A stretch of 43,857 nt of DNA from IMG/VR virus record IMGVR_UViG_3300034021_000225, positions 1 to 43,857 of that record, one strand, 5' to 3'. The stretch comes from a virus. Positions 17,513 to 38,063 of the stretch are shown in pieces. Every line of letters starts with the position of its first letter. Position 1 is the first letter of the stretch. Position numbers and translations under genes: made by a program. Below the pieces are notes generated by a model, which had not been told where the DNA came from, searched no databases, and saw only the letters and a program-made list of their open reading frames with translations.

Positions 17513-17670
17513 TTGTTTGGGAATGAATAATGTTTATCAGTTCCCTAGTACTAGGAGTTGTTGCGCAAATAATATTCGGTTTTTAGGCAATACATGTGTT
17601 GTATTGGGTGTCCACCGCAGCGGGCCAATACTCCAACCGGTTGGGTTTTTAACGTGGTCCCTCCACAAAG
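17513..17670 (-). promoter_or_regulatory. Non-coding leader of the capsid gene
   Basis: About 160 bp without a gene, downstream of the RlpA terminator. It holds a perfect 12-bp palindrome CCTAGTACTAGG (17544-17555) about 32 bp upstream of the capsid ATG, a second inverted repeat CCAACCGGTTGG (17634-17645), and ATTGG/CCAAT arms at about 17605-17630. T7 has its strongest promoter and an mRNA leader here, but I found no copy of the candidate phage promoter 20-mer in this stretch. The hairpins could protect the capsid mRNA or define a processed 5' end. Confidence 0.5.
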
Positions 17671-17699
17671 AAAAGGGGGTCCTACTCCGAGGTGCCCCC
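17671..17699 (-). terminator. Candidate intrinsic terminator upstream of the capsid gene
   Basis: Minus strand: GGGGG (17695-17699 region) ... CCCCC (17675-17679), a 5-bp GC stem extended by CC/GG inside, followed by TTTTCTTTG. It starts 10 bp after the RlpA-like gene stops, so it ends or attenuates the connector/scaffold transcript before the capsid gene. T7 has no terminator here, only after gene 10. Confidence 0.6.
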
Positions 17700-17709
17700 A
17701 ATCCAAAAG

Positions 17710-30577: not shown

Positions 30578-30830
30578 CTTTCAGTACACCTTCGATGTTG
30601 CCATAGGTTTCATCGTAGGCTTCAAGACATTGCATTGCCTCACTGCCAGAAATAGCTTCCAATAGGAAGGTACACTCGGCAAAGGTACGACAAAGGAAAT
30701 CAGCAAAGGATTCAGTAATGAAATCCTCTTCCTCATTCTCCTGTTCTGCTAGCCATTCTTCTTCGTAGTTCTCCACCACAGAAGTGTGAATGCCAAGCCT
30801 TTCAGCAATGTCTGGAATTGAATAATCCAT
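30570..30830 (-). CDS. Hypothetical protein with HTH-like N-terminus, 86 aa
   Basis: The start at 30830 overlaps the RNA polymerase stop (TGATG). Residues 1-28 (MDYSIPDIAERLGIHTSVVE) have the spacing of a helix-turn-helix, followed by an acidic helical region (EEEWLAEQENEEEDF) and LCRTFAECTFLLEAISG. Negative charge is high for a DNA binder, so mimicry or protein binding is equally possible. Coupled translation with RNA polymerase suggests a role in the transcription switch (inference). Confidence 0.7.
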   Translation of the reverse strand: MDYSIPDIAERLGIHTSVVENYEEEWLAEQENEEEDFITESFADFLCRTFAECTFLLEAISGSEAMQCLEAYDETYGNIEGVLKDD

Positions 30831-33166
30831 CAGCAAAAGAAGTAGGAGGATTGTTGGACATCGTTGATGTCAAGAGTATTTAACATGACACTCTCATCAA
30901 AGTCAACCCCCAGCTGCCTGGACCAATCCTTAAGAATTGGCTGTGAGTAGATTTCGACAAACTTGTCCCGGATCGCACTGCCCATGTCATCCATGTCACA
31001 GGAACGACCCAACACGCAGTCATGTATCACGGTAAAGGGCCTGTCCCATTCAGCAAAGACCAGATGAAGCAGAGCAGCATCCAGACTGTGAATAAGATTA
31101 GGGCTTGCTGCTGTCTTGGCCTTTTGTAGGTCAATCTGTCGTTCTTCCCAATCTTTTAGTAGGTAAGAAGCAATTTGCTCACCCAATAATTTAGTCCGAA
31201 CCCTCTCCGACTCATTGCGTCGATACTCCTGAATAACGGGAAATCCAGATGGTGTTATCCACTCAATTGTTGTTGCCCCTGATTTGATGCGTTCCCCAGC
31301 AGCCTTCTGGATAAATTCCATTGACCGACAAGGACCATCAAATACTTTCCTCACACCATAACGGTAGATGGCCTTTACAATCATCTGTAATTCACCCTTT
31401 TCAAGTTCGACACCTTTGAGTTCCTGACGGATGTAATCCCTCGCACTGTTTTCCGTCACCCCGTAAGGCGTAGTCATAACAGTGCGCTTGGTTACTTTTC
31501 TGCTGATGTGATCGTGAAGATGCTCAGGAAGAATCTCCTTTGCCTTCTCCGCGACAATCTTATACCCGTCAGAAGGTTTGTCAGTGGGAACAACATTAAC
31601 CATTTCAGCAGCAGTCCTATCCAATGCCAATGCTGACAAATGTTGAAGACCTGAACAAGTAGCATCAACAGACACAGGAAGACCAGAAGTCTTCTTAGTT
31701 CCCTTGATGACACATTGATCATACTCCAACACAGCAGCAATAAAACACCAAGGTTCTTCTACTGATGACCACTCAGAGATTGTACCCTCAGGATCATTAG
31801 CAAGATGACTCAAGAAATCATGGTTCTTAACGACCCAATCAATTCTTTCATTCATTGGTGCTTTATCCAGTCCATAAGTAGTAGCAACCTGAAAGGCTAA
31901 CCACCACTCATTAACTGGTCCTTCCTCTTGAAAATAAATAAGACTCTTGTCAAAGTCTGTTCCTTGAGGACTAAGGCTAGTTGGTATTGGATATACCCTT
32001 CCCCTAAAGTCAAATGACCAGGGAATCCAGAAGGTATCTTTCTTGTACTTGTTGGCTACGTACAGGGCTTCAGTTGTCCTGTAATTCTTCTGTGCCAGAG
32101 CTGAGTTTTGATCTTCAATTTCAGTTCTCATTCTCCGATAGGCAAGTTTATCCTCTTCCGAGGCACTTTCCCATGGCTCTGGCTTTGGCGGTGGGGGCGT
32201 GGGCTCCTCCGCTCGGAACTTACCCACAGTGATGCGGTGTTCCATACAGAAGTTGGCCAGCTCAAGAACCCTGTCGTTGATTCGATAGGGCACCTTCTGG
32301 AGCAGGTTCAGCATGACGAGGGCCTTGCTGTCCTGTAATAACAGCCACCTTCTCGGAATCCTAGTCCTGATCAGCTTTGTCAGCTTCCTAAGGTCATTGG
32401 TCAGATAGCCACCTTTAAAGTCCGCTGTCCAGTCGTTTGGTTCACACAGCATGGGCCACATACAACCAGCAAACGCCTCAGCCTGCGCTAGGAGCGCCTC
32501 CTTGGCCCTTAAAAACTCCGGTTGGTACTCCAGGTAGGTCACCCGTTCGCTTGGCCCATTAACGGCCATCCTGGTGGTCACCCACCCAGTAGCAACCGAC
32601 AACCGATCCAGCAACCACCCTCCAACAAGGTGCCGAACGCTGGTAGGCCACCGCAATGGCTCAACATCATTACGACGCATCACCGCCCGGTAACGCTGAA
32701 CCTTGTAGGAATAACCTTTGTGATCGTGGATGTGTAGCCGCGCCTTGTTAAATAACTCAGGATGCTTACCACAAAATTGATCCAACATCACTTGATGGTA
32801 GACCAACGTTCCAATATGGGTAGTAGCAGCTACATAAGTAAGACGTTCAATTCTCCTTACACCAAGAATATCAAGGACACCTTTTGCTGTAATAAGAGCT
32901 AACACAGAAGGGTCACAATCCTTGATAGGTAAGACAGCCTGAGCCTTCTCCTGAACCCATCCCTGACTCACACGATGAAGCTTACTGCTGATCTCATTAG
33001 TGATAAGCTCAAGCCCCTTGTTAATAAAGGCTGACCCATAAACCGTAGAGCTAGCATAACAGCGATCTTCAGCAGTCCTAGTCCTTTCCCTAAGGCGTTT
33101 AATCGCTTCACTCCTTGCATCAAGTTCTCGCTGTAATTGTCGGGCGAGTTGCTCAGTTGTTGCCAT
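30830..33166 (-). CDS. Single-subunit RNA polymerase (T7 gp1-like)
   Basis: 778 aa against 883 in T7; the shortening is mainly N-terminal. Catalytic motifs: VDATCSGLQHLSALAL (T7 Asp537 region), RKVTKRTVMTTPYGV (Lys631/Tyr639 region) and VIHDCVLGRSCDM (Asp812 region). Also DFRGRVYPIPTSLSPQG. The C-terminus ends YFFC, an aromatic end comparable to the T7 FAFA foot. It transcribes middle and late phage genes from its own promoters; a candidate promoter lies inside this gene at 32335-32354. It starts 7 bp after the 108-aa gene. Confidence 0.97.
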   Translation of the reverse strand: MATTEQLARQLQRELDARSEAIKRLRERTRTAEDRCYASSTVYGSAFINKGLELITNEISSKLHRVSQGWVQEKAQAVLPIKDCDPSVLALITAKGVLDILGVRRIERLTYVAATTHIGTLVYHQVMLDQFCGKHPELFNKARLHIHDHKGYSYKVQRYRAVMRRNDVEPLRWPTSVRHLVGGWLLDRLSVATGWVTTRMAVNGPSERVTYLEYQPEFLRAKEALLAQAEAFAGCMWPMLCEPNDWTADFKGGYLTNDLRKLTKLIRTRIPRRWLLLQDSKALVMLNLLQKVPYRINDRVLELANFCMEHRITVGKFRAEEPTPPPPKPEPWESASEEDKLAYRRMRTEIEDQNSALAQKNYRTTEALYVANKYKKDTFWIPWSFDFRGRVYPIPTSLSPQGTDFDKSLIYFQEEGPVNEWWLAFQVATTYGLDKAPMNERIDWVVKNHDFLSHLANDPEGTISEWSSVEEPWCFIAAVLEYDQCVIKGTKKTSGLPVSVDATCSGLQHLSALALDRTAAEMVNVVPTDKPSDGYKIVAEKAKEILPEHLHDHISRKVTKRTVMTTPYGVTENSARDYIRQELKGVELEKGELQMIVKAIYRYGVRKVFDGPCRSMEFIQKAAGERIKSGATTIEWITPSGFPVIQEYRRNESERVRTKLLGEQIASYLLKDWEERQIDLQKAKTAASPNLIHSLDAALLHLVFAEWDRPFTVIHDCVLGRSCDMDDMGSAIRDKFVEIYSQPILKDWSRQLGVDFDESVMLNTLDINDVQQSSYFFC
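32335..32354 (-). promoter_or_regulatory. Candidate phage RNA polymerase promoter (copy within RNAP gene)
   Basis: The 20 bases GAGAAGGTGGCTGTTATTAC (minus strand) occur here, inside the RNA polymerase gene around codon 270 (encoding RRWLLLQ), and again exactly at 38064-38083 after the terminase gene, in the same orientation. Flanks do not match. In cyanophage Syn5 the two reported phage promoters lie in these same two places (established knowledge), although the sequence differs. Promoter function here is inference. Confidence 0.6.
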
Positions 33167-35329: not shown

Positions 35330-35518
35330 TCAGCAGCCGATAGAGTAGGTTACAGCAATACGCTCAGGATCATCAATAGCAATGTTACTATTGCGAGCAT
35401 TCAATTGCCGAACAATAATAGTAGCCTCCTCAGGTGTTGCTGCTGATTGATACCATGTTGTGCGTGGTTCTTTGCCCATGTTATAATGAACATGTTGCAT
35501 GATTTTGTAGAATGTCAT
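35330..35518 (-). CDS. Hypothetical early protein, 62 aa
   Basis: MTFYKIMQHVHYNMGKEPRT, then YQSAATPEEATIIVRQLNAR and an end rich in Ile/Asp/Thr. It is preceded by leader A (35519-35599) with two hairpins and a CA-rich tract instead of a Shine-Dalgarno sequence. No family recognised. Confidence 0.7.
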   Translation of the reverse strand: MTFYKIMQHVHYNMGKEPRTTWYQSAATPEEATIIVRQLNARNSNIAIDDPERIAVTYSIGC

Positions 35519-35599
35519 TTGATTAGGTGTGTGTGTGTGTTGGGTAACCTTAATGGTTACAGAAAGGGGACTCTATTACCTGTCCCCAATGTGTAACGA
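35519..35599 (-). promoter_or_regulatory. Intercistronic leader A: double hairpin plus CA-rich tract
   Basis: 81 bp between two early genes. In mRNA order: hairpin 1 GGGGAC/GTCCCC with 10-base loop, linker TTTCT, hairpin 2 GTAACC/GGTTAC with 5-base loop, then about 20 nt of CA repeats reaching the ATG. Leader B (35912-35992) is also exactly 81 bp with both hairpins at the same positions but different paired bases. Possible roles: mRNA processing or protection, attenuation, or translation control. Confidence 0.7.
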
Positions 35600-35911
35600 T
35601 CAGGATGCAATAGCTTCCATTTCATTGACCATCTGTTGGGCTTGGCACCATAGTTCAACGGTAGCCCATACCATGTTAACCTTGAGGGTTGTAATAGTTG
35701 AACCACCGTTACGATCCACAAAATCAATCATGGACATCTCGCAATCATTCAGGTAAGAATAGATTTCTTCTTCATACTGATCGAAAAATTCTGCCACTTC
35801 ATAGTTCCAGATGAAGCTATTAACACCGCCAGCACAGCCATGGTTGGCAATGTCGCGGATCTCGTCTGCATCTGTGAAGCGATCGGTGAGGGCAGTGTGA
35901 AGGTTAGTCAT
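35600..35911 (-). CDS. Acidic early protein of a widespread phage type, 103 aa
   Basis: MTNLHTALTDRFTDADEIRD, IANHGCAGGVNSFIWNYEVA, then FFDQYEEEIYSYLNDCEMSM. The ANHGCAGG segment followed by acidic helices resembles a small family seen in many phages (DUF7222-like, from memory). Role unknown. It is preceded by leader B and followed by leader A, which suggests individually regulated expression. Confidence 0.75.
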   Translation of the reverse strand: MTNLHTALTDRFTDADEIRDIANHGCAGGVNSFIWNYEVAEFFDQYEEEIYSYLNDCEMSMIDFVDRNGGSTITTLKVNMVWATVELWCQAQQMVNEMEAIAS

Positions 35912-35992
35912 TGTGTTGTGTGTTGGTGTGGTTGTGTGTAGCTTAAGTGCTACAGGAAGGGCAGGCGATTAACTCTGCCCTACTTGTAACAA
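35912..35992 (-). promoter_or_regulatory. Intercistronic leader B: double hairpin plus CA-rich tract
   Basis: 81 bp. In mRNA order: hairpin 1 GGGCAG/CTGCCC with 10-base loop, linker TTCCT, hairpin 2 GTAGC/GCTAC with 6-base loop, then a CA-rich tract up to the ATG. Relative to leader A, hairpin 1 differs at two base pairs and both changes keep pairing (G-C to C-G twice), evidence for a conserved RNA structure. Confidence 0.7.
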
Positions 35993-36112
35993 TCAGCAAC
36001 CTTTAGCAAGTGCCAGAGCTGCCATCACTTGGCAACGGGTGAAGTCATCCATTGTTTCGTTAGCGAGGCGATCTTCAAGCCATTGAATGTGGGCGGCGAT
36101 GTTGTCGGTCAT
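35993..36112 (-). CDS. First early gene, 39-aa protein
   Basis: Not long enough for usual gene callers. ATG at 36112 gives MTDNIAAHIQWLEDRLANET, then MDDFTRCQVMAALALAKGC. An amphipathic helical pair with acidic N-terminal half. It is the first gene after the candidate host-type promoters (36136-36194) and is followed by leader B, so it is expected to be expressed very early. Function unknown. Confidence 0.7.
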   Translation of the reverse strand: MTDNIAAHIQWLEDRLANETMDDFTRCQVMAALALAKGC

Positions 36113-36135
36113 TGGTTTGTGATTGAACTGAGCTA

Positions 36136-36194
36136 ATGATGGCCCCTGGCCCTGCCAGTGTCAAGGCTTTAATGATAAGTGTTGCTAATGTCAA
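36136..36194 (-). promoter_or_regulatory. Candidate host-type early promoters
   Basis: Minus strand carries two perfect TTGACA boxes (36189-36194 and 36159-36164). The second is followed after 17 bp by CATCAT (36136-36141; 4 of 6 to TATAAT), placing a start about 15-20 bp before the first early ATG. TTATCATT occurs twice between and beside the boxes. Host sigma-70-type polymerase must start early transcription in T7-like phages. Strength and exact start are unproven. Confidence 0.5.
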
Positions 36195-36533
36195 TGATAA
36201 GCAAACCTAATGGGCACAGATTTTATATAAAAAGAACACGCGTACTACACGCGCACGCGTTACCTATGTAGCACTGGTGCATTTGTACTCCTATCCCTGT
36301 CCAAATCCTTGCGTATCTGTCTTTCAAGCAGTGACGCAGCCCAGTGATAGCAAGGGGTTTGGCCCTGTCCAGAGCCTGGTTGGACACGGTTTGGACACGA
36401 TGGGCCGGGGGTGGCCAAGAATTCCGGCGAGACGGGGGGGCATGGGGGTGATTCGGCAACCGTACATGCGTATCAGGGGTTCAGAAATTTGTGTCAAAAA
36501 TCATGAGTGACACTTAGAAGCCTCCAGAAGGGC

Positions 36534-36551
36534 CCTCCGAGAGGCCGGAGG
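36534..36551 (-). terminator. Hairpin downstream of the thyX operon
   Basis: Perfect inverted repeat CCTCCG-agaggc-CGGAGG located 11 bp beyond the stop of the 99-aa membrane gene. No T-run follows on the minus strand, so intrinsic termination would be weak; it may serve as an RNA 3'-end protector. Confidence 0.35.
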
Positions 36552-36562
36552 TGCTACGTCAC

Positions 36563-37518: not shown

Positions 37519-37606
37519 TGATAGAGGAAACAGTAGTGTTAGTAGTATTAGTAATAATAGTTATTATTGTTATTTTTTCTTTCTATAACAGCTGTATCGT
37601 AATAGG

Positions 37607-37637
37607 TCGCTATGTATCACATCGCTACCTATCGCTA
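37607..37637. repeat. TCGCTA iterons beside an AT-rich tract
   Basis: Three exact TCGCTA units at 37607-37612, 37622-37627 and 37632-37637, with ATAGGT/ACCTAT forming an outer inverted repeat (37602-37631 region). They abut the most AT-rich part of the window. Such an arrangement is typical of replication origins or protein-binding clusters; function is inferred. Confidence 0.45.
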
Positions 37638-37726
37638 TACATTCTTCCTTTAAGAATAATAAAAAAGAATATTAATGTTAATATTATTAATATTATTATT
37701 AATTAAAATAATTAACAATATATCCA

Positions 37727-37749
37727 ACAGTAGGCTTCGCATCTACTGT
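37727..37749. other. Perfect hairpin ACAGTAG/CTACTGT
   Basis: A 7-bp perfect inverted repeat with a 9-base loop (GCTTCGCAT) inside the AT-rich region. No T-run on the minus strand. Could be a packaging, nicking or RNA-end structure. Confidence 0.45.
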
Positions 37750-38063
37750 CTAATATATATACCCCCTTTCCCTTTTCTGTTTGTCGTCCCCCTTGGGGTC
37801 TTGGGCTAGAAATGTACAGGCGCTTCGCTACCTACATAGGAAAGAGGGGAGATTTGTTGTCTTCCCCCCTTCCGTGTCCATACCCCATACCCGTCCCTCT
37901 GGGTTGATAAAGCGGACGCAGTACGCGCCCTAGTTGACGGGATGGTGTTTCTGAAAATCAGCGATTTCGAGAGAGGGAGAAGACCGTAAGGAGAGACCCC
38001 CCTCTATGGTCTCCCCCCTCAGCTTGTCGCTGTTTCCACACCCAAGGAGCACCACTTCCCTGG

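Follow-up and report, generated by a model that had tools for sequence, protein, structure and literature searches.

The early region of a T7-like cyanophage carries two copies of a three-strand RNA element, the middle strand of which has two conserved and mutually exclusive partners. Copies with covarying pairs lie at early-gene junctions of related phages, and the element is almost certainly a selected RNA structure. Its favoured reading, to which we give a probability of about 0.48, is that of a putative T7-like early-mRNA processing site with built-in refolding.

Two copies between early genes

The window, that is, the whole stretch of DNA analysed, covers 43,857 bases and is the record of a T7-like cyanophage. 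Its RNA polymerase gene (30830-33166, minus strand), encoding an enzyme that shares about 46% identity with its S-CBP2 counterpart and 45% with the Syn5 one, has the early genes just upstream. There, two gaps between minus-strand ORFs (35599-35519 and 35992-35912; minus-strand sequences TCGTTACACATTGGGGACAGGTAATAGAGTCCCCTTTCTGTAACCATTAAGGTTACCCAACACACACACACACCTAATCAA and TTGTTACAAGTAGGGCAGAGTTAATCGCCTGCCCTTCCTGTAGCACTTAAGCTACACACAACCACACCAACACACAACACA) are both exactly 81 bp long, as claimed in the original prediction, whose description of the two copies holds in every detail re-examined here. Hairpin 1 occupies the same offsets (13-34) in both, with a 6-bp stem and a 10-nt loop, and its stem reads GGGGAC/GTCCCC in one copy and GGGCAG/CTGCCC in the other, two pairs being changed and both compensated. 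A TTYCT linker is found in both gaps, hairpin 2 ends at offset 56 in both, and the tract up to the ATG is 92-100% A+C and devoid of a Shine-Dalgarno sequence. The genes that follow are indeed unrelated, being members of different protein families; no relatives of the 62-aa downstream protein came up in a protein search. A pattern of the shared core had exactly two matches in the window, against none across 100 shuffles. Two copies alone are nonetheless weak evidence for a selected RNA element. Besides, the earlier description had missed, in each copy, an upstream GTTACA pairing with the left arm of hairpin 2, as well as the extension of the fold into the UGA with which the preceding gene ends. 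The resulting features are the following.

35519-35602, minus strand: copy 1, element and leader (match to covariance model R2 at 35550-35603, E 1.4e-14), with the 103-aa gene upstream (35600-35911) and the 62-aa gene downstream (35330-35518), both on the minus strand
35600-35602, minus strand: copy 1, UGA, the stop that ends the upstream gene, also the 5' strand of the basal stem (partner 35551-35553; the basal stem covaries in relatives)
35592-35597, minus strand: copy 1, strand 1 of helix A, GTTACA
35588-35591, minus strand: copy 1, 5' side of the internal loop, CATT
35566-35587, minus strand: copy 1, hairpin 1, GGGGAC-10 nt-GTCCCC (covariation)
35562-35565, minus strand: copy 1, 3' side of the internal loop, TTTC, where the proposed cleavage would fall
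35556-35561, minus strand: copy 1, shared middle strand TGTAAC of helix A or helix B (triple covariation)
35544-35549, minus strand: copy 1, strand 3, GGTTAC (helix B; right arm of hairpin 2)
35519-35543, minus strand: copy 1, CA-rich spacer, devoid of a Shine-Dalgarno sequence, before the ATG at 35518
35912-35995, minus strand: copy 2, element and leader (R2 match at 35943-35996, E 5.9e-14), with a 39-aa ORF upstream (35993-36112) and the 103-aa gene downstream (35600-35911), both on the minus strand
35993-35995, minus strand: copy 2, UGA, the stop that ends the upstream ORF, also the 5' strand of the basal stem
35985-35990, minus strand: copy 2, strand 1 of helix A, GTTACA
35981-35984, minus strand: copy 2, 5' side of the internal loop, AGTA
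35959-35980, minus strand: copy 2, hairpin 1, GGGCAG-10 nt-CTGCCC
35955-35958, minus strand: copy 2, 3' side of the internal loop, TTCC
35949-35954, minus strand: copy 2, shared middle strand TGTAGC
35937-35942, minus strand: copy 2, strand 3, GCTACA (helix B)
35912-35936, minus strand: copy 2, CA-rich spacer to the ATG at 35911
36164-36136 and 36200-36172, minus strand: a pair of candidate host promoters of the sigma-70 type, ahead of the early genes (consensus matches only)

Both candidate promoters lie in a 447-bp gap that precedes the early genes (36116-36562), in which a terminator-like hairpin is also present (36260-36236, minus strand). Elsewhere in the window, a 197-bp gap of the structural-gene region (17513-17709, minus strand) is free of the early element and holds a strong hairpin, GGGGGCACCTCGGAGTAGGACCCCC, followed by TTTTCTTT, likely a transcription terminator, while a 439-bp non-coding gap between the terminase gene and thyX (37519-37957), partly very AT-rich with TTAAT/ATTAAT runs, is a candidate replication origin or genome-end region.

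One strand with two partners

At the RNA level, the left arm of hairpin 2 is a middle strand, UGUAAC or UGUAGC, the second partner of which is the upstream GUUACA (helix A). Helix A is prolonged by a basal stem, where the upstream UGA stop codon pairs with UCA/UUA. The alternative, helix B, brings together the downstream GCUAC and the same middle strand, and is the hairpin 2 described earlier. The long form is then made of the basal stem, the 6-bp helix A, a 4x4 internal loop and hairpin 1 (4-9 bp).

The pairs of these helices covary in relatives. When 17 close copies are aligned without gaps, every change in the three variable pairs of hairpin 1 is matched by a compensating one (100% paired), and among wider copies hairpin 1 is swapped outright, for example for CCCATCA/TGATGGG, GCCAC-UUCG-GUGGU or GGGGA-UACG-UCCCC. 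Stable RNA tetraloops of the UNCG type (UUCG, UACG, UCCG) cap hairpin 1 in contigs L089, L151, L152, L158, L191, L228 and L272, a further hint that hairpin 1 acts as RNA. Alignment A5, built with MAFFT and not fitted to structure, shows double-sided changes in 11 of 17 pairs (65 double-changed cells) and 94% of cells paired in the long form, versus 32-46% in slid registers; it was drawn from descriptor matches, so that its hairpin 1 and helix A counts share the bias of an imposed pairing. In a larger structure-fitted set, double changes reach 16 of 17 pairs and 316 cells. Since many copies are related, the covarying cells are not independent events, and in the tabulation of the descriptor matches the counts for hairpin 1 and most of helix A are not independent either, their pairing being imposed by the search. 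For alignment A4 the search patterns excluded the 3' arm of hairpin 1, and alignment A6 was fitted to the model. Neither the basal stem nor helix B was imposed by the descriptor search, and the basal stem nevertheless pairs and covaries.

As for helix B, it is found in 85 of 87 distinct copies, compared with a mean of 24.8 and a maximum of 36 after shuffling, and in 25 of the 28 copies with a non-standard middle strand (permuted mean 14.7, maximum 21). Where the middle strand differs, both partners differ with it, as seen in the triples GUUACA/UGUAGC/GCUACA, ACUACA/UGUAGU/ACUACG, AUUAUA/UAUAGU/GGCUAUG, AUUGCA/UGCAGU/GACUGC and CUCUCA/UGAGGG/CCCUCA; in S-RIP1 (UCUACA/UGUAGG/ACCUAC), helix B keeps all its pairs and helix A has lost one. 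Such tracking of one strand by two partners is the signature of a conserved alternative fold. The sub-family with the wholly different strands CTCTCA/TGAGGG/CCCTCA, often with a longer hairpin 1, is present in S-CBP3 (HQ633062, 1712-1770) and in contigs L244, L084, L180, L218, L378, L379 and L207, and sits downstream of the standard type where both are seen.

Regarding the balance between the two folds, the predicted energy of the long hairpin is below that of the double hairpin for 45 of 53 copies. For the intact leaders of the window, helix A reaches predicted pairing probabilities of 0.92-1.0 against about 0-0.01 for helix B, and the long form is predicted at about 99% in both copies, whereas a downstream piece beginning in the linker is predicted to fold into hairpin 2 in essentially every copy. 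Hairpin 2 would therefore be expected only once strand 1 is removed or covered. The double hairpin of the original prediction thus survives in part: both hairpins are supported, but hairpin 2 represents one of the conformations open to an element with three strands, and for the intact RNA the predictions favour its competitor, the long hairpin. That the element is duplicated, selected and tied to individual early genes is strongly supported by the covariation in relatives, and its proposed control of these genes is plausible.

The internal loop of the long form, CUUW/UUUC, is conserved and symmetric (4/4) in nearly all copies, and drifts much less in sequence than hairpin 1, which varies freely. 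The last C of the linker, just before the middle strand, is invariant (87 of 87 copies) and stands opposite C or A in all 56 copies tabulated, while the first U of the linker is kept in 84 of 86. Lying between two helices, this loop is likely to be a site of recognition or cutting.

Distribution among cyanophages

Relatives were gathered by pattern scans and protein-anchored scans of IMG/VR; as the records were partly selected by pattern, the counts below give no frequency, and copy numbers are at least the values stated. Covariance model R1, which covers hairpin 1 and leaves helices A and B outside, detected the element in 27 of 50 records at E<=1, and weakly in the cultured phages S-CBP4 and S-CBP3. 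The structure is conserved in relatives, as shown also by model R2, which found three copies in S-CBP4, three in S-CBP3, two in S-RIP2 and one in S-RIP1, with covarying pairs, and 42 positive records out of 50 in a second, partly pattern-chosen IMG/VR batch. Altogether, the covariance models place the element in at least dozens of IMG/VR contigs. No convincing copy was found by R2 among 15 other cyanophage records and T7: Syn5, S-CBP2, P60, S-CBP42, S-B28, S-TIP37, DSL-LC07, WH11-B, S-TIP28, the metagenomic relative AP013539 and T7 (NC_001604) gave no match, and S-CBP1, S-SRP01, S-SBP1, 9515-10a and P-SSP7 gave marginal ones only (E 0.007-0.5), that of P-SSP7 falling far outside the early region. 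A general descriptor search returned 127 matches, antisense mirrors included, versus 12 in a Markov control.

The element corresponds to no known RNA family: Rfam release 15 gave no match at or above the gathering threshold and, at E<=1, a single spurious SCARNA7 match far below it. A bacterial origin was likewise rejected, since the core pattern, run against 84,980 bacterial and archaeal genomes, had 50 matches scattered over phyla, none of them in a picocyanobacterium and all but one weak by R2. The exception, an isolated R2 match in a pattern-selected contig of a Bacteroidetes MAG (L375, 1984-2030; 31.6 bits, E 2.5e-6), may be due to chance or to a phage fragment. No earlier description was found in the literature searched, which covered few subscription papers.

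A possible joint between shuffled genes

In the window, in S-CBP3, S-CBP4, S-RIP1 and S-RIP2, and in near-full-length contigs, confident copies are confined to the first early-gene junctions before the RNA polymerase gene. The element typically begins at the upstream stop codon and stops some 25 nt short of the next AUG. Of 57 non-redundant descriptor copies, 29 have this stop codon at -5 relative to strand 1, and most of the remainder have it no more than 18 nt upstream. The following ATG is typically reached 20-33 nt past hairpin 2, and the spacer lacks a Shine-Dalgarno motif in all but one copy; it is CA-rich in the close relatives of the window and less so elsewhere. The term leader used earlier is thus only half right, as the element is intercistronic, with a 5' edge that overlaps or abuts the upstream stop codon.

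The flanking genes vary widely, with 26 protein families downstream and 23 upstream, one upstream family being combined with 10 downstream families. In line with this, relatives of the 103-aa gene of the window occur in L002, L010, L022 and L069, where unrelated genes come after the element; in L022, the element runs directly into the MKTATFRI gene, which lies one gene later in the window.

A putative processing junction and competing explanations

In the favoured reading, transcription of the early genes by the host polymerase would yield a single RNA, each junction of which would fold into a long imperfect hairpin made of the UGA-containing basal stem, the 6-bp stem, the CUUW/UUUC loop and hairpin 1. 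An endonuclease, most likely host RNase III as at the T7 early sites, would cleave within or close to the UUUC side of the loop, thereby releasing the middle strand from its 5' partner and allowing it to pair downstream as a 5'-terminal hairpin of the downstream mRNA, while hairpin 1 would remain at the 3' end of the upstream mRNA. In vivo, this refolding may stabilise the messages and influence their expression, the G-poor spacer of about 25 nt, without a Shine-Dalgarno sequence, then loading ribosomes. Termination of a ribosome on the UGA could shift the balance of the same switch.

The paired covariation, the existence of both helices, the invariant C of the linker, the predicted dominance of the long form and the early-gene position all support this processing model. 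In addition, cleavage midway through UUUC would fall 13 nt from the base of the stem, a distance equal to the 13-nt product of T7 R1.1, a 60-nt hairpin with a 4/5-nt internal loop cut into 47 + 13 nt (PMC6121014), and the presence of RNase III genes in all sequenced cyanobacteria (PMC10989914) favours it as well. The model is weakened, however, by a symmetric loop that differs from that of R1.1, by the lack of a third strand in the T7 sites, and by a basal stem that is short and has one mismatch. Furthermore, since the conservation of the loop and of helix A exceeds the generic recognition needs of RNase III, another protein may be involved.

A ribosome-sensing switch, which could be combined with the processing model, is the foremost alternative, although we consider it rather unlikely. 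Upstream translation would here set downstream processing or expression: a ribosome terminating at the UGA of the basal stem would cover strand 1 and favour the double hairpin, the long hairpin forming otherwise. The frequent location of the stop codon at -5 from strand 1, the participation of the UGA in a covarying stem and the conservation of both folds speak for it, but the position of the stop is not fixed in all copies, compact genomes would in any case force a junction element to start near a stop, and neither fold hides the start codon, about 25 nt past hairpin 2. Slightly less probable still is the action of another factor, either RNase E cutting the single-stranded UUUC linker of the double hairpin or a phage or host protein binding the loop. 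The pyrimidine linker is invariant, and RNase E is a key cyanobacterial endonuclease that is induced during infection by the T7-like cyanophage P-SSP7 (PMC10989914); against RNase E, the linker belongs to an internal loop, and not to a free single strand, in the fold predicted to dominate.

Control of transcription, by an antitermination RNA acting on the host polymerase in the manner of HK022 put or by an attenuator, appears improbable. A short structured cis RNA with two mutually exclusive folds in the early region would suit it, but hairpin 1 is followed by no U-tract (tail UUUCUGUA) and the terminator scan called none at the elements, so that an intrinsic terminator was rejected; as to antitermination, it does not require several copies within about 1 kb, each close to a start codon. 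There is very little to recommend a new self-cleaving ribozyme, despite a small conserved core joined by variable helices, as no Rfam ribozyme matched, few unpaired positions are strictly conserved, and the covariation around the shared strand has no obvious catalytic role. The least probable explanation is a DNA element, namely a phage RNA polymerase promoter or a palindromic operator. Copy 1 agrees with the Syn5 promoter ATTGGGCACCCGTAA (PMC3950665) at 12 of 15 positions, which is no better than other matches of the window, four sites of which fit equally well; moreover, hairpin 1, which holds the match, is not conserved in sequence and is replaced wholesale with compensation in relatives, and Syn5 itself is devoid of the element. 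A palindromic operator was rejected as the stems covary freely and the copies lie in sense orientation to the genes, between stop and start, the antisense model matches being mirrors of the same hairpin.

Comparison with known systems

In the early region of T7, RNase III cuts hairpins between the early genes. The cyanophage element resembles these sites (R0.3, R0.5, R1, R1.1 and R1.3) in being a repeated imperfect hairpin of about 50-60 nt at early-gene junctions, near and upstream of the phage RNA polymerase gene, with a lower stem, an internal loop about one helical turn from the base, and an upper stem. It differs from them by the absence of any sequence relation (model R2 had no match in NC_001604), by its symmetric 4/4 pyrimidine-rich loop where that of R1.1 is asymmetric (4/5), and by a third strand that re-pairs the middle strand; its cleavage is moreover a proposal. 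The element thus probably works like an early-mRNA processing junction without belonging by sequence to the T7 R-site family, and the shared-strand switch is an addition to this known kind of junction.

The PeSL (promoter early-stem-loop) cassettes of T4-type phages are duplicated stem-loops that lie between shuffled early genes and contain an early promoter. The cyanophage element is similarly repeated between varying genes, but it is a covarying three-strand RNA, and a consensus scan revealed no sense-strand promoter-like site inside it. Mutually exclusive helices are also the basis of attenuators and riboswitch-type switches, with which the element has in common a strand with two conserved and mutually exclusive partners, whereas it has no known ligand domain, terminator U-tract or hidden start site; a riboswitch expression platform is absent, with no terminator and a start codon about 25 nt beyond the structure. 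Finally, the HK022 put sites are short two-hairpin cis RNAs of early phage transcripts that act in antitermination. The likeness stops at this architecture, as the cyanophage copies occupy successive gene junctions near start codons and have a strand common to two folds.

Significance

Little is known of how T7-like cyanophages separate and stabilise their early messages. The present data indicate that a structured and strongly covarying RNA, outside Rfam, marks early-gene junctions in cultured and uncultured cyanophages, and S-CBP3, S-CBP4, S-RIP1 and S-RIP2, which carry it and have recorded Synechococcus hosts, make its function directly testable. Somewhat more tentatively than for the processing site itself, the element may represent a type of RNA switch at phage gene junctions, in which a single strand would be common to a cleavable intercistronic hairpin and to the 5' hairpin of the product, strand exchange would be triggered by the cut or by a terminating ribosome, and the early mRNAs would become separately end-protected, the whole forming a portable joint for the swapping of early genes. 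The element also offers a means of recognising the joints where small hypothetical early proteins are swapped.
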